A model generated the notes under the pieces. It was not told the DNA's origin. It did no database searches and saw nothing but the letters and a program-made list of their open reading frames with translations. From Chaenocephalus aceratus (Eukaryota; Chordata; Actinopteri; Perciformes; Channichthyidae): a stretch of DNA of 64,000 nt. The position numbers were made by a program, and so were the translations under genes. The stretch is from contig CM043787.1 in NCBI GenBank assembly GCA_023974075.1, positions 36,545,691 to 36,609,690 on the forward strand, in the 5' to 3' direction. Positions 25,359-36,300 of the stretch are shown here, one piece after another. Position 1 is the first letter of the stretch, and each line of letters begins with the position of its first letter.

Positions 25359-25400
25359 AACGATAGTTACGGCTGTAACTACGGTCTATGAGTCCCGGAT

Positions 25401-25537
25401 GACCGCCAGAGGCGGTGCTTTAAGCACTGGATATGTCCATCGCGCGCATGCGCAGCTCGAGTACCAATAACAACAAAGTCACCTGTGACCCACGTGACAC
25501 CGGCTATATCAGCCGGTGTCATCAGAGGATCTGTTCC
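25401..25537 (-). repeat. DIRS inverted terminal repeat (3' side)
   Basis: 137 bp, inverted counterpart of 31841-31977 with three mismatches. Contains hairpins ACCGCC-AGA-GGCGGT near the outer edge and GACACCGGCT/AGCCGGTGTC at 25496-25520. A further 42 bp (25359-25400) extends outward to the 3' terminus. Confidence 0.93.
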
Positions 25538-25581
25538 CAGAATCTTCTCGCGAGCACACAAGAATTCTGAGTGACAGGGAA

Positions 25582-25683
25582 CTCTGGCGGTCATCCGGGA
25601 CTCATAGGACCGTAGTTACAGCCGTAACTATCGTTCTATTTCGTCCCTACTGACCGCCAGAGGCGGTGCTTTAAGCACTGGAT
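25582..25683 (-). repeat. DIRS internal complementary region
   Basis: The left half (25582-25635) is the complement of the 3' terminus 25359-25411 with one extra G. The right half (25633-25683) equals the first 51 bp of the 5' terminus. The two halves share one GTT at 25633-25635, so this region spells the sequence expected at a circle junction of the two ends. In DIRS1-type models it serves as the template or splint that joins the ends (established knowledge). Confidence 0.9.
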
Positions 25684-25686
25684 GAC

Positions 25687-26540
25687 TTATACCAACAATG
25701 TCATGAAGAATCCAAGCCCTTGCTCACCACTGGAAGCAGCGGAGCTCGGCAAAAGGACCACGCCCAAAGAATGGGGAGTGGCGACATTGACCTGATGACA
25801 ACTGGAGAATGTGCCAGAAGACGCCCACGACGCCGCGGCGCAGATGGTCTCCAGGGGCACCACCCTCAGGGCAGCCCAATATGTTGAGATGCTCCTTGTA
25901 GAGTGGCATCTCAGCCTGATGGCAGGGGGCGGCCACTGGCCCCGTAAGCACTGGTTAGAGGGCATAACCTCCTTTAGTGCCGCCAAGGCAAAATCTAGAG
26001 TTGCTCCTCCTGCCGTATACAGGCAGTAGCCTTGATATATTCCCTTTGGGCACCCCCAGGGCACAGCAACTTCGACGTGCCGTACTCCTGAATGTCAAAG
26101 CGTGCCAGCTGGGCAGGCTGATTGAAGTGGGTTTGAGGAAGGACCCCGGGCGGGAATGCCACATTTGCCCAAAGGGCAACGCCTGAGAGTCTCCCCTCGG
26201 GCATGTATTGTTTATGGAGAGGACATGCAACTCCCCGACTCGCTTCCCTGAGGCTAAGGCAAGCAGAAATGCTGCCTTTGTGGGCAGCCACCTAAGCCCC
26301 ACCTGGGCCAGGGGCTCGAAGGGAGGAGATGATACGGCATCCGGCAGCAGGGGCAGGTCCCAAGCCGGAGCCCTCGTGGTCAAGGGGGACGCTGCCGTAA
26401 AGCCCCTCTCATAAAGAGGGACACCGACCTGTGGCACCCCGCTGTGGCGCCGTCGACCCGAACATGTCGGGCAGAAATCGCAGCCACATAAATTCAGAGT
26501 GGAGTGAGAACGTCCACTATCTAGAAGGGACTGTTGTCTA
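25687..26540 (-). pseudogene. DIRS tyrosine recombinase, broken
   Basis: Remnant of the recombinase that would integrate the circular DNA. One minus frame gives SLLDSGRSHSTLN and, further on, ALASGKRVGELHVLSI, which carries the first catalytic Arg in the KRVGEL context. After a frameshift near 26010 another frame continues with HSTRSISTYWAALR, the H-x-x-R motif, followed by ICAAASWASSGTF and PHSLG. In family members I would expect a catalytic Tyr shortly after this AASW block (context like F-Y-R-L-D); here the residues are CHQVN, so the Tyr appears to be replaced by His. The N-terminal part is fused to truncated RNase H. Not functional. Confidence 0.85.
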
Positions 26541-27345
26541 AGCAACAACATACATGCTGTCCCCAAGGAACACGCACATTCTTGCCCCCCAGTTGGGGTA
26601 GAAAGTGTGTGAGTGCAAGCTGCACGGCCCGAAACTCTAGCACGTTGACCTGGCGCGCACTCTCCTGGGCAGACCGCTGACCCTGAACGGTCCTGCCCTG
26701 CCGCACTGCACCCCACCCTGAGAGACATGCACCTATGGTGATGGTCTCCTGGCGAGATGGGATGGCGCCCATGGGCACGCCTACCAGGAGATAGGCCCTG
26801 CCCCTCCGGCGTGACAGAGAGTGGAGGCAATGCTGCGACACCCTGACTTCCCTGTGCCTGTGCCACTTGGCTGTGAAGGCTGTTCAGCCACATCTGCATG
26901 GGGCGCAACGACAGCGGGCCTAAGGGCCCAGCGGCCGAGGTAGCTGCCAGTCTGCCCAAGGGCCGGAGGAAGTGAATATAAGGCACCCTCTTGCCCGGCC
27001 CACGTGGAAGTAGGCATCCCTCGGTTGAGAACCACTCCACCTGTGCATATGCAGTAGTCAGCATATAGAATAGCAGCACCTTCAGGAATCTGTTGATTCC
27101 TCTGAGGTCCAAGACCGGCGAAATCCGCCGACTTTCTTGCTCACGAGAAAGTACGCCGAGTAGAACCCCCTGGCTAAGCAGAGGGTCTTACTGGCTTGAT
27201 TGTGTCCTTGGACAGAAGGACGGACAACTCTTGGCCCAGAGCTACGGCCCCTGCCGGATCGCTGACGACTGTCAATTAGACCCAGCCGAAGGCTAGGGGC
27301 CGGAGCTGCGGTCCGTACCCCTGGGTTAAGGTGAAAACCACCCAA
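26541..27345 (-). pseudogene. DIRS reverse transcriptase-RNase H, broken
   Basis: Begins with FYSAYFLVSKKVGGFR, shifts frame near 27115, then LDLRGINRFLK, the conserved N-terminal RT block of DIRS elements. After MLTTA the sequence jumps directly to a block (HFLRPLGRLAATSA, LRPMQMWLNSLHS) that normally lies beyond the polymerase core. The catalytic palm with its Y-x-D-D motif is therefore deleted, an estimated several hundred bases. The RNase H part follows as WGAVRQGRTVQGQ, VNVLEFRAVQLALTHFLP and LGGKNVRV, and then decays. Polymerase activity is impossible from this copy. Assignment rests on recalled family motifs and fits the neighbouring recombinase and terminal structure. Confidence 0.85.
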
Positions 27346-28257
27346 GGGACGGAAGTACAGACCGCCCAGAAAGTGAGCTGCTGCTGGGAAAGCAGCCGCC
27401 GACCACCCCCGGGATTTCAGGGCCCAGCCCCCCGGACCCTGGAGCCTCTTGGGGGGCTCCGGTAAGGCTCTGGGGCACGAGGCCGCCTGGAAGGCGGGCG
27501 ACCTGGGGCACGAAAGTCATTGGGAGGCGGTTGAGTGGGCCGCTAAGACCTCTGCAGACCACCCCTGTAATCCGGCGGCTGAGTGCGGCTGCTAGAGCGG
27601 CCCCTGGGCCTGCTGGGAGTGGGCACAGGTCTGCGAGGACCCGAGTGCTGCTGCCTGGTCTGCCTAGCTTGGGCGGCACGCTCCAGTGCCTCCAGGGCAG
27701 CTGACCTAAACAGCTCCCCTGGCTCGACTGGTACGCTACGGAGGACTCTCCGTCAACCGAAGGAGGTGCGTCAGCCGAAGGAGGTGCGCCAACCGAAGGA
27801 GGTGCGCCAACCGAAGGAGGTGCGCCAACCGAAGGGGGGGGGGGGCATGACTTCATCATGCCCCTATTGGCAGCTAGCCGATCCACTTTAGAGGACAGCC
27901 TGTTTCTAGTCCTTCTATTGGGGGGAGCACACATAGCCATCGCTCCCTCAAGTCGCCGGGAACGGCCGAATTGATCTGGACAAGGAGAGGTGTCTGTTGG
28001 CTGCTGCCAGACGTTGCACCTCAGTGATTCGCCCGAGGCATGCAGCTACAGCTCATGCAGGCGTTTACCGTGAGAACCTCCCTCAGATGCTTGAATTTCG
28101 TCCCCACTGACCGCCAGAGGCGGCCGAGGTAGGAGGGGCAGCGGTCGTGGCCGTCCTCGGGCTCAAGAGAAGCCATACAGGCGCTACATGAATGAACCAT
28201 TCTGTAGGTAGCCAGATGCAGCGTAGCCGGGAGCGGGTGCGGGAACACAGCCTTCAC
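27326..28257 (-). pseudogene. DIRS Gag-like protein, broken
   Basis: The ATG at 28257 opens a 78-codon frame with CSACMASLEPEDGHDRC, a C-x2-C-x9-H-x2-C zinc-finger-like motif seen near the start of fish DIRS Gag proteins. It stops at 28021. A second frame (27940-27326) continues with a proline-rich tandem repeat (GAPPSV units) and runs to the RT region. The first residues (MKAVFPHPLPATLHLA) are encoded by the same 33-bp word that is reiterated in the 140-bp leader array, so the start codon lies at the edge of that array. Gag would package the element RNA. Too short and frameshifted to work. Confidence 0.65.
27758..27840 (-). repeat. 18-bp tandem repeat inside the Gag frame
   Basis: About five units related to CCGAAGGAGGTGCGCCAA, in frame, encoding the repeated hexapeptide PPSVGA on minus. 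It ends in a 9-bp G-run. Confidence 0.9.
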
Positions 28258-30020
28258 CAGCTACCTGCTTAATGGAAAGAGTAGAGCGTTGCTGCTACTC
28301 GCCGAACAGAAAGAGGGATGTAATTACACCCACGTTACCGGCAGAGGGAGCGGGAGCGAGAGCACTGCCTTCACCTGGCTGGATTAATAAACACGGCAGT
28401 TCAGCGTCTACCAGGAGCGGGGGCGAGAACTCTGCCGGCTGAGTTAGAGACGAATGCCAGATGCAGCATAACCCGGAGCGGGTGCGGGAACACAGCCTTC
28501 ACCAGCTACCTGCTTAACGGGAAAACAGGGCAGTTCCGCGTCTACCAGGAGCGGGGGCGAGAACACTACCTTCACTGGTTGAGTTAGAGACGAATGCCAG
28601 ATGCAGCGTAACCGGGAGCGGGTGCGGGAACACAGCCTTCACCAGCTACCTGCTTAACAGAGAAACAAGGCAGTTCCGCGTCTACCAGGAGCGGGGGCGA
28701 GAACACTGCCTTCACTGGTTGAGTTAGAAACTAATGCCAGATGCAGCGTAACCGGGAGCGGGTGCGGGAACACAGCCTTCACCAGCTACCTGCTTAACAG
28801 AGAAACAAGGCAGTTCCGCGTCTACCAGGAGCGGGGGCGAGAACACTGCCTTCACTGGTTGAGTTAGAAACGAATGCCAGATGCAGCGTAACCGGGAGCG
28901 GGTGCGGGAACACAGCCTTCACCAGCTACCTGCTTAACAGAGAAACAAGGCAGTTCCGCGTCTACCAGGAGCGGGGGCGAGAACACTGCCTTCACTGGTT
29001 GAGTTAGAAACGAATGCCAGATGCAGCGTAACCGGGAGCGGGTGCGGGAACACAGCCTTCACCAGCTACCTGCTGAACAGAAAAACAAGGCAGTTCAGCG
29101 TCTACCAGGAGCGGGGGCGAAAACACTGCCTTCACTGGTTGAGTTAGAGACAAATGCCAGATGCAGCGTAACCGGGAGCGGGTGCGGGAACACAGCCTTC
29201 ACCAGCTACCTGCTTAACGGAGAAACAAGGCAGTTCCGCGTCTACCAGGAGCGGGGGCGAGAACACTGCCTTCACTGGTTGAATTAGAGATGAATGCCAG
29301 ATGCAGCGTAACCGGGAGCGGGTGCGGGAACACAGACTTCACCAGCTACCTGCTTAACGGAGAAACAAGGCAGTTCCACGTCTACCAGGAGCGGGGGCGA
29401 AACACTGCCTTCACTGGTTGAGTTAGAGACGAATGCCAGATGCAGCGTAACCGGGAGCGGGTGCGGGAACACAGACTTCACCAGCTACCTGCTTAACGGA
29501 GAAACAAGGCAGTTCCACGTCTACCAGGAGCGGGGGCGAAACACTGCCTTCACTGGTTGAATTAGAGACGAATGCCAGATGCAGCGTAACCGGGAGCGGG
29601 TGCGGGAACACAGCCTTCACCAGCTACCTGCTTAATGGAAAAACGAGGCAGTTTGGCGTCTACCAGGAGTGGGGTCGAGAACTGCCTTCACTGGTTGAGT
29701 TAGAGACGAATGCCAGATGCAGTGTAACCGGGAGCGGGTGCGGGAACACAGCCTTCACCGGCTACCTGCTTAACGGAAAAACGAAGCCGTTTGGCGTCTA
29801 CCAGGAATGGGGGCGAGAACTGCCTTCACTGGTTGAGTTAGAGACGAACGCCAGATGCAGCGTAACCGGGAGCGGGTGCGGGAACACAGCCTTCACCAGC
29901 TACCTGCTGAACGGGAAGAGTAGAGCGGTGCTACTACTCGCCGAACAGAAAAAGGGATGTAGCTACATCCGCATTACCGGTAGAGGGAGCGGGAGCGAGA
30001 GCACTGCCTTCACCTAGCTG
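28211..30020 (-). repeat. 140-bp tandem array in the DIRS leader
   Basis: GCCAGATGCAGCGTAACCGG recurs at 28211, 28456, 28596, 28736, 28876, 29016, 29156, 29296, 29435, 29574, 29712 and 29850, giving units of 138-140 bp. Each unit is a dimer of diverged halves of about 70 bp (one around GGGAGCGGGTGCGGGAACAC, one around GGAGCGGGGGCGAGAACACT). The first and last intervals carry a distinct variant with ACTCGCCGAACAGAAA. Related single words recur at 30885, 31204, 31527 and 31597. On minus the array lies just upstream of, and includes, the Gag start. Confidence 0.95.
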
Positions 30021-30151
30021 GGTAAAATAAAAAAGCTTAACAGTATACGCAAGACGTTAGCCGAGCGGCTGCTGCTAACGATCAAGAGAGATCAAGTCAA
30101 ATAACACACATGTTTAAGACCAGATAACTAGCTTCTGAAGAAGAGAACAGC

Positions 30152-30700
30152 ACAGAGCCGTAGTTACAGCAGTAACCATGGCCAGGGCTCACACGGCATA
30201 TAACCGTAGTTACAGTAGTAACTATGGCCAGTACTTACACGGATTAGAACCGTAGTTACAGTCGTAACTATGGCCAGAACTTACACAGCATATAGCCGTA
30301 GTTACAGTAGTAACTCTGGCCAGTACTTGCACAGCTTGGGACCGTAGTTACAGTAGTAACTATGGCCAGTACTTACATGGCCTAGAACCGTAGTCACAGT
30401 AGTAACTATGGCCAGTACTTACACAGCATAGAGCCGTAGTTACGGTATTGACTATGGCCAGTACTTGCACGGCTTGGAACCGTAGTTACAGTAGTAACTA
30501 TGGCCAGTACTTACGGCTTAAACCCGTAGCTACAGTATTAACTATGGCCAGTATTTACACAGCCTAGAGCCGTAGTTACGGTATTGACTATGGCCAGTAC
30601 TTACACGGCTTGGAACCGTAGTTACAGTAGTAATTATGGCCAGTACTTACGGCTTAGAACCTTAGTTACAGTAGTAACTGTGGCCGGTGCCTAAAAGTGT
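30152..30700 (-). repeat. 46-bp palindromic tandem array in the DIRS leader
   Basis: Twelve units with CCGTAGTTACAG starts near 30158, 30204, 30250, 30296, 30342, 30388, 30433, 30480, 30524, 30570, 30616 and 30660. The core is TAGTTAC-N4-GTAACTA, in many units extended to imperfect 11-bp arms GCCGTAGTTAC and GTAACTATGGC. The same core lies at the element's 3' terminus (25364-25381) and internal complementary region (25613-25630). The remaining 20 bp (CCAGTACTTACACGGCTTA type) is shared among units, so this is a tandem repeat, not a repeat-spacer array. Confidence 0.93.
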
Positions 30701-30782
30701 CAGCCAAACGGCTGCCCACTAGACAATATAATATTGGGAGGATGAAATCCTCCTTAATGGCGATACACGCAGAGCACACACA

Positions 30783-31345
30783 GTGAAGATTGTTCTCTGC
30801 ATATCGTCCTAGTGCTAGGAGTCTAGTACTAGGAGCAGTAAATACAACGATATAGCGCTACTGCAACCATACCATGCGTTTACCGGGAGCGGGAGCGAGA
30901 GCACTGCCCTCACCGGCTGAGTTAAATAATGAAGCTTAACAGTACATGCAAAGTGTTAGCCAAGCGGCTGCTGCTAACAATCAAGCAACCAAGTCAGAAC
31001 ACAATGTTAAGACCAGATAATTAGCTTCTAAGAAAGAGAACAGCCCGCATAGAACCGTAGGCCATGGTTACAGTAGTAACCGCACATGCAGAGCACACAG
31101 CACCCGCAGTGAAGATGTTCTCTGTATATCATCCTAGTGCTAGGAGTCTAGTACTAGGAGCAGTAATACAACGATCTAGCGCTACTGCAATCAAACCCTA
31201 TGTTACCGGGAGCGGGAGCACTGCCCTGAGTTAATAGTTAAGCTCAACAGCAAGGTGTTAGCCAAGCGGCTGCTGCTAACAATCAAGCGACCAAGTCAGA
31301 ACACAAATGTTAAGACCAGAGATAGATAATAGCTTCTAAGAAATA
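30783..31345 (-). repeat. About 330-bp duplicated leader module
   Basis: 30783-31033 and 31112-31345 are diverged copies: CCTAGTGCTAGGAGTC, then TAGTACTAGGAGCAGTA, then an ACCGGGAGCGGGAG word, then CGGCTGCTGCTAAC, then TAGCTTCTAAGAAA. A third partial copy of the second half is at 30025-30150. The CTAGTGCTAG and CTAGTACTAG words are small palindromes. Confidence 0.85.
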
Positions 31346-31840
31346 GAAAGTACTTACCTTACTCTCTGCATCTAAATGAAAAACGGGTTTAAAGTATGAC
31401 ACTCTGGGCTTTCCATAGTAAATTGAATGAGGGACACAGCCAAAGTTGGGACTCAAATGCTAATGATAGCTCGGGCACAACGCCACAAGCAAAACTTTCA
31501 AAAGAGCATAAGGGCAACTTTATGGGAGAGGAAGCGGGAACACTGTCGTCACCAGAAAGTCTAAGCCACAAAAAATAAGACGGCAATCAGGACAACTTGG
31601 CTGGGAGAGGGTGCGGGAACACAGCCATCACCAGCAACAAGCTGACACAAACCTGTCTGTCGAGGCTCTGCACAGCGCACAGCCGGCCACAGCTCCTGGA
31701 GGACGCGTTAACGATCCGTAGCTCCGACTGTCAGTCGCGAAGCTGCACGCGGCCAGCTGCTTGCAGAGAAATCCCTCAGATCAAACGCTGTAGGCTAAAA
31801 AAAATTAGCCACGGTACCCTCGCGCAGCGAGAAGATGAAA

Positions 31841-31977
31841 GGAACAGATCCTCTGACGACACCGGCTGATATAGCAGGTGTCACGTGGGTCACAGGTGAC
31901 TTTGTTGTTATTGGTACTCGAGCTGCGCATGCACGCGATGGACATATCCAGTGCTTAAAGCACCGCCTCTGGCGGTC
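31841..31977 (-). repeat. DIRS inverted terminal repeat (5' side)
   Basis: Inverted counterpart of 25401-25537. The 5' terminus extends outward to 31996, ending in AAC (GTT when read as element sense). The likely promoter of the element should lie here or in the adjacent leader arrays (inference). Confidence 0.93.
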
Positions 31978-31996
31978 AGTAGGGACGAAATAGAAC

Positions 31997-32882: not shown

Positions 32883-33373
32883 AAACATTAAAAGATAAAA
32901 GTTACAGTGCAGTCTAAGATATGAATAGTTCAATTCTTTCGGTTCTTGATTTTTAATTTATTCACAGAACCTCCCTTTGGAAATCCGAACATTTCCATCC
33001 CGATTGTTAATTTAGACTGATTGTTTTCACCATGTTATGCTCGCATGACATCCACAATCGGACCCTCAGGAGGGTGTACTAGCCCTCTACTCTGCTTTGC
33101 GTTCTATAACAAAGTCTTTAAGTGTTACCTGAACACCCCGTGTTACGAAAACACTATTTTTCACCCGTCGGTGATGTGATACTTGTTCCTCAGTACAAAT
33201 CACCCAAAAACTGATCGTAAACCCTGGCTACGACGGATATCCCAAATATCCTACTTTCGAGCAGTCCCTCTCATAAATGTCATGGAGTTTAATTACGTTT
33301 AAATTTAAAACATTAAAAGAAAAAATACATGGATAAAAGTTACAGTGCAGTCTAAGATATGAATAGTTCAATT
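32883..33373 (-). repeat. Disrupted LINE 3' UTR: 370-bp foreign block between direct repeats
   Basis: LINE sequence AAACATTAAAAG...GTTCAATT occurs twice, at 32883-32935 and 33308-33373. Both share variants (AGTCTAAGATATGAATAG) that differ from LINE copy 2. Between them lies about 370 bp (32936-33305) with no LINE similarity and no recognised identity. The first repeat lacks 13 bases present in the second. Confidence 0.8.
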
Positions 33374-36300
33374 AAAAGCAGCGACAAAAAGAAAAGTCTT
33401 CAGCCTGGATTTAAAAGTAGTCAGAGTTGCAGCGGACCTGCAGGTTTCTGGGAGTTTGTTCCATATATTTGGAGCATAATAACTGAACGCTGCTTTACCA
33501 TGTTTAGTTCTGACTCTGGGGACAGAAAGCTGACCAGTCCTTGAAGACCTGAGAGATCTGGATGGTTCATAATTTAGCAGGAGGTCAGAAATGTAATTTG
33601 GGCCTAAACCATTCAGTGCTTTATAAACCAGCAGCAGTATTTTGAAATCTATTATTTGACACACAGGAAGCCAGTGTAAAGACTGATGTGATCCACTTTC
33701 TTAGTGTTAGTGAGGACTCGAGCAGCGGCGTTCTGAATCAGCTGCAGCTTCCTAATAGATTTTTTAGTGAGACCTGTGAAGACACCATTGCAGTAGTCGA
33801 GTCTACTGAAGATAAAAGCATGGACAAGTTTTTCCAAATCCTGCTGTGACATTAGTCTTTTAATCCTAGATATATTCTTTAGGTGATAGTAGGCTGATTT
33901 AGTAACTGTTTTAATGTGACTGTTGAAACTCAGGTCAGAGTACATGACTACACCTAGATTTCTGGCTTTATCTGTTGTTTTGAACATTGCAGACTGAAGC
34001 TCAGCGCTCACTTGTATACGTTCTGACTTTGCTCCAAAAACCATTACCTCAGTTTTATCTTTGTTTAATTGGAGAAAGTTCTGACACATCCAATCATTGA
34101 TTTGTTCAATGCACTTACTCAGTGTTTGAATTGGAGCATAATCTCCTGGTGAAATTGTTACGTAGTTACGTGTGTCATCTGCATAGCTATGGTAACTTAT
34201 TTTGTTGTTTTTCATTATCTGAGCCAGTGGTAGCATGTAGATGTTAAAAAGAAGAGGCCCCAATATGGAGGAACCCCACATGTCATATTTGTCAACTCAG
34301 ATGTGTATGTACCTATAGAAACAAAGTTGTTTCTGTCCTTTAGGTAGGATTCAAACCAATTTAGAACTGTTTCCGAAAGTCCCACCCAGTTTTCCAGTCG
34401 GTCTAGTAATATGCTGTGTCAAACGCAGCACTGAGATCTAATAATACTAACACTGAAGTTCTGCCACTGTCTGTGTTTAAGTGTATGTCATTAAAGACCT
34501 TTACAAGAGCAGTCTCAGTGCTGTGGTTTGGACGAAAGCCTGACTGGAACACATCCAAACAGTTATTTAAATGCAAGAAATTACTCAACTGTTGAAAAAC
34601 AACTTTTTCAATGATTTTACCTAGAAATGGGAGGTTTGATATGGGCCTGTAATTGTTCATTACTGAAGCATCTAGATTATTCTTTTTTAAGAGAGGTTTA
34701 ATGACTGCAGTTTTCAGGGCCTGTGTAAAAATACCTGAGTGAAGAGATTTGTTTACTATATGAAGTAGATCTGAGGCCATGCAAGGCAAAACATCTTTGA
34801 AAAATCCTGTTGGAATAATATAATTAATAATAATTCCTTACATTTATTATAGCGCTTTTCCAGTGCTCAAAGCGCTTTACAGATACACATTACACATATT
34901 AATTGTATACATGCAATGGTCACTGTGGACAATACCCACAGGAGCAAGTTCAGGTGAAGCGTCTTGCCCAAGGACACAACGGCTGCAGGAGGAGGATTTC
35001 AGAAGTTGTATAATGTCCTCTAGGTTTTTATCATTAATCTGATGGAATTGTGTCATGGTGCTTGAATTGTTATTAGGTGGACACAGAGACAACACATTTG
35101 CTGTTCCTGATGCAGAGGCACTGACTGCTTGTCTGATTTTCTGAATGTTGTCAGTGAAGAAGGAGGCAAAATCATTGCACGCCCTGGTGGATAGAAATTC
35201 AGAGGCTACTGACACTGGGGGGTTAGTTAGTCTGTCGACGGTAGCAAACAAGGCACGTGCGTTGTTTTTGTTTTTGGTAATGATGTCAGAGAAGAACAAT
35301 TGTCGTGCGTTTTTCAATTCCAAATTATAAAGGCTAAGTCTCTCCTTATAGATTTCAAAGTGAACCTGGAGATTTGATTTTCGCCACCTGCGTTCAGCTT
35401 TTCGACATTCTCTTTTTTCTGTTTTCACGGTCATGGCCTTTCTCCATGGAGATATTTTCTTGCCAGACACTTCCTTTACCTTAGTTGGAGCAATGGCATC
35501 TATAACATTTTTAATTTTTTAATTAAAATGATCTACTAGCTCATTTACTGAGATGTTAGCAGGGGCAAGTGTGGAAGAAAAATTCTGAGTAAACATTTCC
35601 CTAGTATTTTCAGTTAAATATCGCTTTGTGTTTATCTCTTTTTGAACACTTGTGTGAACAGAAATAGAGCTCTCAAAGAAAACACAGGAATGGTCAGAGA
35701 GTGCAACATCAGTCACCACAACCTTAGAGATATTCAGACCCTTTGAGATAATTAAGTCCAGAGTGTGCCCCTTATTGTGCGTGGGCTCCGTCACATGCTG
35801 AGTCAGTCCATAGCTATCAAGAACACAAAACAGTTATTTTGCCCCTCTGTCTTGGGGGTTGTCAACATGGATGTTAAAATCACCAACAATGACTAGACGG
35901 TCAAAGTCAATACACACTATAGACAGCAGTTCAGTAAAGTCATCGTCGTCTATAGATATTTAGGAACAGAGCTCGAGAGGAGCATTTCAGCTGAAGGGCC
36001 ACATATTCAAAAGAATCAAAGTTTCCATATGATGTCTTCCTGCATTGAAGAGAATCATTGAACAGAATAGCAACTCCACCCCCTTTCTTATGCATTCTTT
36101 CCTGACTCATAAAACTAAAGTTGGGAGGGGTTGATTCGTTAAGAACAGCTGCACTGTTATTTTGTTCAATCCAAGTTTCTGTTAAAAACATAAAATCGAG
36201 ATTGTGCTCACTGCTCAGTGATAATATCATTGATTAAAAAGGTTTTTCTGCCAAAGACCTGACATTTAATAAAGCTAGTTTAAGTTTGTTAAACACACTA

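Follow-up and report, generated by a model that had tools for sequence, protein, structure and literature searches.

The 64,000-nucleotide stretch of the Chaenocephalus aceratus genome analyzed here (the window; contig CM043787.1, positions 36,545,691 to 36,609,690 of the forward strand) contains an element of the DIRS1 type, and the leader of this element holds a tandem array in which the palindrome of the element's own 3' end is repeated twelve times. The class of DIRS1 elements is already known; the amplification of the junction dyad in the leader is what differs. The reading that we favor, tentatively and at a little less than an even chance, is that the array is an amplified copy of the element's own junction dyad in a DIRS1 subfamily without a reverse-transcriptase core, that this subfamily would be copied in trans, and that the array would aid integration by way of the tyrosine recombinase. 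Within this reading we infer the binding of the recombinase, its recruitment and the trans-mobilization from sequence comparison. The coordinates of the features are given in Table 1.

A search of the window for TAGTTAC-N4-GTAACTA with up to 2 mismatches gave 14 matches against 0.19 expected, and none of 100 shuffled sequences reached 14. The matches lie at 25364-25381, at 25613-25630 and, for the other twelve, within 30161-30680. That is, the twelve leader palindromes and the copies at the 3' terminus and in the internal complementary region (ICR), which a preliminary description of this DNA had pointed out, were all located, and chance is excluded as their origin. The 46-bp spacing given in that description holds for nine intervals, while the other two are 44 bp. 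With Tandem Repeats Finder the array has 11.7 copies at a period of 46, and its units also recur at a higher order, with a period of 138. The arms of the array dyads are about 10-11 bp long with one fixed mismatch, in agreement with the imperfect arms of about 11 bp described before, and the CC/GG positions farther out are complementary in all 12 units. A related dyad placed near 31063-31080 was recovered at 31061-31080.

The architecture of the element explains what this palindrome is. The element has inverted terminal repeats, an ICR with a 3-bp overlap, and an extension confined to one end and the ICR, as in DIRS1. The left-end sequence at 31827-31986 is 94% complementary to 25392-25551 across 160 nt, and the stretch 31946-31996 is 100% complementary to 25633-25683 (51 nt). 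The right extension falls outside the left-repeat match and is 100% complementary to 25608-25635, and the right half of the ICR matches the 3' end with 53 identities, 0 mismatches and 1 gap. The insertion triplet GTT/AAC is also present: 18 loci were surveyed for the triplet at the right end (R-end), 2 yielded no R-end, and the remaining 16 had AAC (12), ATC (3) or AGC (1). When the ends are joined, the circle junction reads ATAGAAC-NN-TAGTTAC-N4-GTAACTA-NN-GTTCTAT, with up to 14 of 16 arm positions paired. On this comparison the palindrome is the right extension and forms the core of the predicted circle junction.

In the fish DIRS1 elements GaDIRS1, GaDIRS2 and TnDIRS1a, the right extension is 26-27 bp long with an AAC junction (PMC3266345, Table 3). 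As far as the accessible part of that paper describes them, these elements resemble the window element in having inverted terminal repeats, an ICR overlap on AAC/GTT and a starting GTT (the terminal GTT in two of the three); unlike them, the window element carries copies of the right extension as a leader array and is missing the reverse-transcriptase core. The section of PMC3266345 on these elements does not call the right extension a dyad, and the main text contains neither "palindrom" nor "tandem". Our search of the open literature, subscription papers excepted, turned up no account of a right extension that forms a covarying dyad specific to its family, nor of its amplification in a leader.

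The dyad was then counted in the same 1.06-Gb genome, with the reversed pattern as the control. The exact TAGTTAC-N4-GTAACTA 18-mer occurs at 2078 places (control 8) and the form GGGTTAC-N5-GTAACCC at 1778 places (control 4); one form with mixed arms occurs at 10 places (control 2). Since the counts with matched arms are high and the mixed form is rare, both arms have changed together, which is expected if the site is recognized by a dimeric protein or through the pairing of its arms. We also obtained the 3' ends for 16 recombinase matches picked from 91. An R-end/ICR pair was present in 11 and there was no pair in 5; in all 11 paired ends the R-end, the ICR or both show a GTTAC-N4/5-GTAAC dyad at a constant position, with small lesions in one of the two dyads in three loci (L030, L033 and L034). 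Four of these 11, with recombinase matches of 47-51% to the query, carry GGGTTAC-N5-GTAACCC instead of TAGTTAC-N4-GTAACTA. Eight GGG-type pairs were chosen by their dyad; in these the identity of R-end and ICR stops at AAC in 7 and two letters past it in 1. Locus L046, of the 47% family, has one GTTAC-N6-GTAAC, and no left repeat was found there. That relatives should carry the palindrome at their ends was borne out in three of the four loci among the 21 best recombinase matches whose 3' end was retrieved, the fourth having no R-end/ICR pair. The junction dyad is most likely the site at which the DIRS tyrosine recombinase would bind the joined ends of the complementary DNA (cDNA) circle. The insertion mechanism of DIRS elements was, as of 2018, without experimental demonstration, as stated in the accessible part of PMC5941688, and a covarying junction dyad at thousands of genome places offers a concrete predicted recognition site for DIRS recombination.

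The array unit matches this junction. Over a 29-bp alignment with the ICR, which takes in letters of the flank, the unit has 27 identities and 2 mismatches and scores 23; no other part of the element scores above 15. Because of this 29-bp match, we think that the unit was probably captured at the circle junction and then amplified; that is, a part of the junction consisting of the right extension and its flank would have been multiplied in tandem in the leader.

The array was surveyed at 16 loci on contig C1, which came from 50 listed places of the 2078 with the TA form and were all retrieved. Ten of the loci carry arrays, and all ten arrays lie inside DIRS leader sequence. A terminal repeat was seen at nine of them; the remaining one (L024) has leader and gag similarity and no terminal repeat within the 10 kb retrieved. 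The six array-free loci include L017 and L021, the latter a diverged leader with a single dyad where the array would be; the rest are single ends or decayed pieces. The pattern of the first unit, with up to 2 mismatches, occurs at 341 genome places (control 0), and no array outside a DIRS leader was met among the 10 inspected of these approximately 341 places. The 46-bp series was absent among 50 listed of the 1778 GG-type places. The order of the units is largely common to the copies, less so for L012 and L020, and the array therefore probably arose once. The assignment of the array to the leader of a DIRS element, made in the preliminary description, is upheld by these ten leaders together with the inverted repeats, and unrelated satellite DNA is ruled out for the arrays inspected.

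Relatives in phages, plasmids and viruses were also sought. A blastn search of the element against phage and plasmid collections gave no match, the dyad pattern in IMG/VR gave 5 viral contigs with one match each, whose similarity to the element extends over no more than about 32 nt around the dyad, and of the 59 candidates from an alignment-based scan of viral contigs none was confirmed. These collections thus yielded no relative.

The ten arrays also bear on the suggestion, made in the preliminary description, that the array is a recombination landing site, namely a preferred target of later DIRS insertions. None of the ten is interrupted by another element, and the AAC triplet is poorly kept in the units (columns -5 to -3). 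We consider this explanation highly improbable and have dropped it. The poor keeping of AAC fits binding without recombination.

To see how far the array extends among related elements, we took the 21 best recombinase matches and, for 20 of them, retrieved 1.8 kb of leader upstream. Eighteen of them include the gag-proximal part (L051 and L056 are the exceptions), and 5 are covered from the left repeat to gag. The dyad within 2 mismatches was found in none of the 20 leaders, and no leader array was seen in L045, L047 and L048. Many of these 20 recombinase matches have one or two internal stops and 3 have none, meaning that they are better kept than the window copy and not all intact. The twenty-first match is a family-A copy on contig C22 (4317499 to about 4322876) with open frames at its recombinase (972 aa) and reverse-transcriptase (576 aa) matches. 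This copy has the same kind of terminal repeats and the same right-extension dyad as the window element; it differs in its open frames and in having no dyad in its first 1.5 kb. In its leader, which measures about 950 bp, the sequences to either side of a 3-kb expansion in the window element are matched at 78% and 75% identity, so that a leader of approximately 3.7 kb in the window element stands against one of approximately 0.95 kb in a relative of the same genome. The comparison with autonomous relatives that had been proposed thus gave a divided result: the terminal dyad is there in three of four better-kept relatives, and leader copies were not seen in the leader parts covered. Since none was seen there, the array seems to be characteristic of a subfamily that lacks the reverse-transcriptase core.

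The absence of this core was read directly in the array copies. In all 7 copies with flanking coding sequence, the core (P0046 residues approximately 203/226 to 331/358, with YLDD) is absent at the same place; L012 is missing more than the core, and L016, L019 and L020 are uninformative. Because the Champsocephalus gunnari protein P0003 also reads through this joined sequence, the deletion is found beyond the present genome. With the reverse transcriptase of DIRS1 wanting, the array copies are classed, from their sequence, as a non-autonomous deletion subfamily and not as full DIRS1. Among the matches listed, an exact first unit lies no more than 9 kb upstream of at least 11 of 53 recombinase matches on C1-C13, and none of the 27 family-A-like matches to the reverse-transcriptase core in the covered stretch has a listed first unit within 9 kb (one has it at 16 kb). 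Both lists hold the best-scored candidates, and 100 of the 341 first units were listed, all exact, so that these counts are incomplete.

The recombinase itself has 47 protein relatives, several of which are named Tyr recombinase domain-containing, although the window copy is broken. The best named matches are from the Antarctic notothenioid fish Dissostichus eleginoides and Champsocephalus gunnari. The YNoto DIRS1 families of Antarctic fish come from the same fish group; they were studied by means of reverse-transcriptase/RNase H fragments some 1.25 kb long, and leaders and ends are not described in the accessible part of that paper (PMC5941688). In L077 on contig C10, which has the array upstream, the recombinase frame stays open for 314 residues and retains R, HSTR and Y; the sequence read at this locus comprises the recombinase and the array. 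The ratio of nonsynonymous to synonymous substitution rates (dN/dS) between the L077 and L012 recombinases is 0.31 over 220 codons. Other values, from 0.42 to 0.90, were set aside because broken copies shift the frame. The tested recombinases gave Pfam matches below the cut-off or none. For a fish relative, the predicted fold (predicted local distance difference test, pLDDT, 56.5, which is low) had Cre or its variants as 17 of the 19 best Foldseek matches and a Tn1549 integrase as one, none with E <= 0.001 and with template modeling (TM) scores of about 0.3; an earlier and shallower model was poor (pLDDT 45). A sequence search of solved structures gave a single match at chance level (E 0.51).

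How the array copies moved can be considered from the ICR, which serves as a template for the element ends in the published model (accessible part of PMC3266345). In the window copy the ICR differs from the termini by 0 mismatches and 1 gap in 105, and in L010, L011 (plus 2 gap positions), L014 and L017 by 2-3 mismatches. If the ICR templates the ends, this close agreement means that these five copies were inserted fairly recently. Recent insertion of copies with broken frames points to mobilization in trans.

From these observations the following mechanism can be proposed. On the cDNA circle the recombinase would attach to the junction dyad, and the crossover would take place between the GTT of the circle and a GTT of the target. 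The dozen leader dyads might hold more recombinase on the same circle, or might draw recombinase from competing circles, and the extra recombinase would then help a non-autonomous copy to integrate. Recruitment or titration of the recombinase, which the preliminary description had put forward, is thus possible from the sequence. Non-autonomous plant DNA transposons have subterminal arrays of transposase-binding motifs. By analogy, the recognition motif of the mobilizing protein would in both cases be repeated in an element mobilized in trans; the motifs of the plant elements lie near the ends, whereas here the element is a retrotransposon, and the array is found only in the leader and is derived from the junction.

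The serious rival, to which we allow a real though smaller probability, is neutral expansion. That is, a junction stretch would have been captured once, have grown by slippage or unequal exchange, and have been inherited without function along with the source copies. Several observations favor this view and weigh against a function of the array in integration. The common unit order, with its probable single origin, is what such growth would leave, and the number of units varies widely, from 5 to 14 in the main arrays and 3-4 in L024. The leader seems to expand easily, because a 140-bp tandem array is also present in it. Relatives without a seen array (20 leaders) have spread too, and L017, a deletion copy with both ends present, has no leader array.

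On the conservation of the dyad the evidence is mixed. Within each of the 10 arrays, the divergence of the dyad block is lower than that of the unit's remainder by a factor of about 2-3.7, which speaks against neutral expansion; these figures are biased, because the units were found by their dyad. Moreover, the divergence inside and outside the dyad is 0.017 vs 0.072 per site between recent copies and 0.031 vs 0.090 between subfamilies. The contrast is no weaker between recent copies, which fits bias better than selection. For the window and L014, whose arrays are the two without gaps, it is 3/264 in the dyad vs 11/264 in the remainder (p = 0.054). The arms are unequally conserved (left 11/693 deviations, right 69/693), the least variable 22-column block begins at the first letter of the dyad and extends into TGGCC, and the block centered on the dyad ranks only sixth of 46 for low variability. 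Selection on the dyad is thus not established. Against neutral expansion stand also the occurrence of the first unit at 341 places and the separate leader dyad, for in L020 the site corresponding to 31060-31081 has 11 of its 12 arm positions paired, and both of its sides differ from the array units.

A function in the RNA was considered as well, in which the dyads would act as hairpins of the leader RNA and might, for example, serve as multiple signals for packaging or translation, to the advantage of a transcript mobilized in trans. The sense RNA of the array folds better than shuffled sequences (z = -3.7, with 0 of 100 shuffles equally good), but any amplified dyad folds well, and hence the z-score does not discriminate. 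Of 76 cells that are not Watson-Crick pairs in 99 units, G-U pairing would accommodate only 14 in the sense RNA; 32 are compatible in the antisense only and 30 in neither. This explanation seems improbable.

Still less probable, from the sequence, is an array for transcription or splicing, in which the unit would bind a host factor or repeat a splice-donor-like GTAAGTAC on the sense strand and so tune the leader transcripts. In its favor, AAG/GTAAGT, which resembles a splice donor, lies in the 5' part of the leader (31352-31360, minus strand), and GTAAGTAC recurs in many units; GTTAC-N4-GTAAC is reminiscent of the vertebrate X-box. However, the same dyad stands at the recombination end and its arms covary between DIRS families, which a shared host factor would not require.

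Returning to the array as an amplified junction dyad that aids integration, a more specific form can be stated, which we think unlikely on balance. The subfamily would have dropped the reverse transcriptase and kept its recombinase frames under selection, and the junction-derived array would gather recombinase in cis, making the element a parasite of a parasite. If this were true, the number of recombination sites would be the selfish device of a retrotransposon that depends on the reverse transcriptase of full-length relatives. The leader arrays provide a natural dosage series, with approximately 5-14 extra sites in most copies seen, for relating the number of sites to non-autonomous mobility.

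Table 1. Features of the DIRS1-type element in the window
Feature	Position	Strand	Remark
Complete DIRS1-type element	25359..31996	-	6638 bp; start GTTCTATTTCG, end GTAACTATCGTT; inverted repeats I1, I2, I3, I5
Left inverted terminal repeat (element 5' end)	31827..31996	-	Complementary matches to right repeat and ICR (I1, I2)
Leader array	30152..30685	-	12 units of 46 or 44 bp, one TAGTTAC-N4-GTAACTA-like dyad per unit
Separate leader dyad	31060..31081	-	GGCCATGGTTAC-AGTA-GTAACC; dyad family D8, repeat I16
Second leader tandem array	28389..29914	-	140-bp unit, about 11 copies (Tandem Repeats Finder)
Remnant gag-like frames	27329..28260	-	Reading frames; start similar to gag-like start of L047
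Additional left-terminus fragment copy	28095..28123	-	29 bp, inverted to left terminus; I4, 97%; within remnant gag frame
Remnant reverse-transcriptase start, RNase H-side and tyrosine-recombinase frames	25727..27187	-	Reverse-transcriptase core absent
ICR, left half	25633..25683	-	I2; overlaps right half by GTT (25633-25635)
ICR, right half (junction copy of 3' end)	25582..25635	-	I3, I5; dyad 25613-25630
Right inverted terminal repeat	25386..25551	-	I1 and I5
Right extension (terminal palindrome)	25359..25385	-	27 bp by this boundary; AAC at outer edge, dyad 25364-25381 inside; I3

Some further observations concern the leader and the ends. A 65-bp portion of the 140-bp unit matches one single stretch of the family-A leader (882-946), so the second array grew from leader sequence too. 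A further imperfect dyad-like stretch (CCTAGTGCTAGGAGTCTAGTACTAGGA) is repeated in the leader at 30791-30841 and 31116-31166, and the leader also contains larger nested duplications at spacings of about 0.3 and 0.9 kb. The left-terminus fragment in the remnant gag is flanked by CPSYLG and HLRE; nothing of the kind is inserted at this place in the family-A copy. The fragment is present in 8 of the 10 fetched loci of the array subfamily (L010, L011, L013-L017 and L019, in opposite orientation in L016) and not in L012 and L020. Judged by its sequence, this insert is a second capture of terminal sequence by the array subfamily. At the R-end of L012 (locus position 96-171), the right repeat beside the right extension has the left-type letters TTCGTCC, and the terminal repeats look as if they had exchanged sequence. 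Finally, broken frames of a different reverse-transcriptase element lie at 33368-36230 on the minus strand, with an RVT_1 match (E 1e-9) at 33652-34281.
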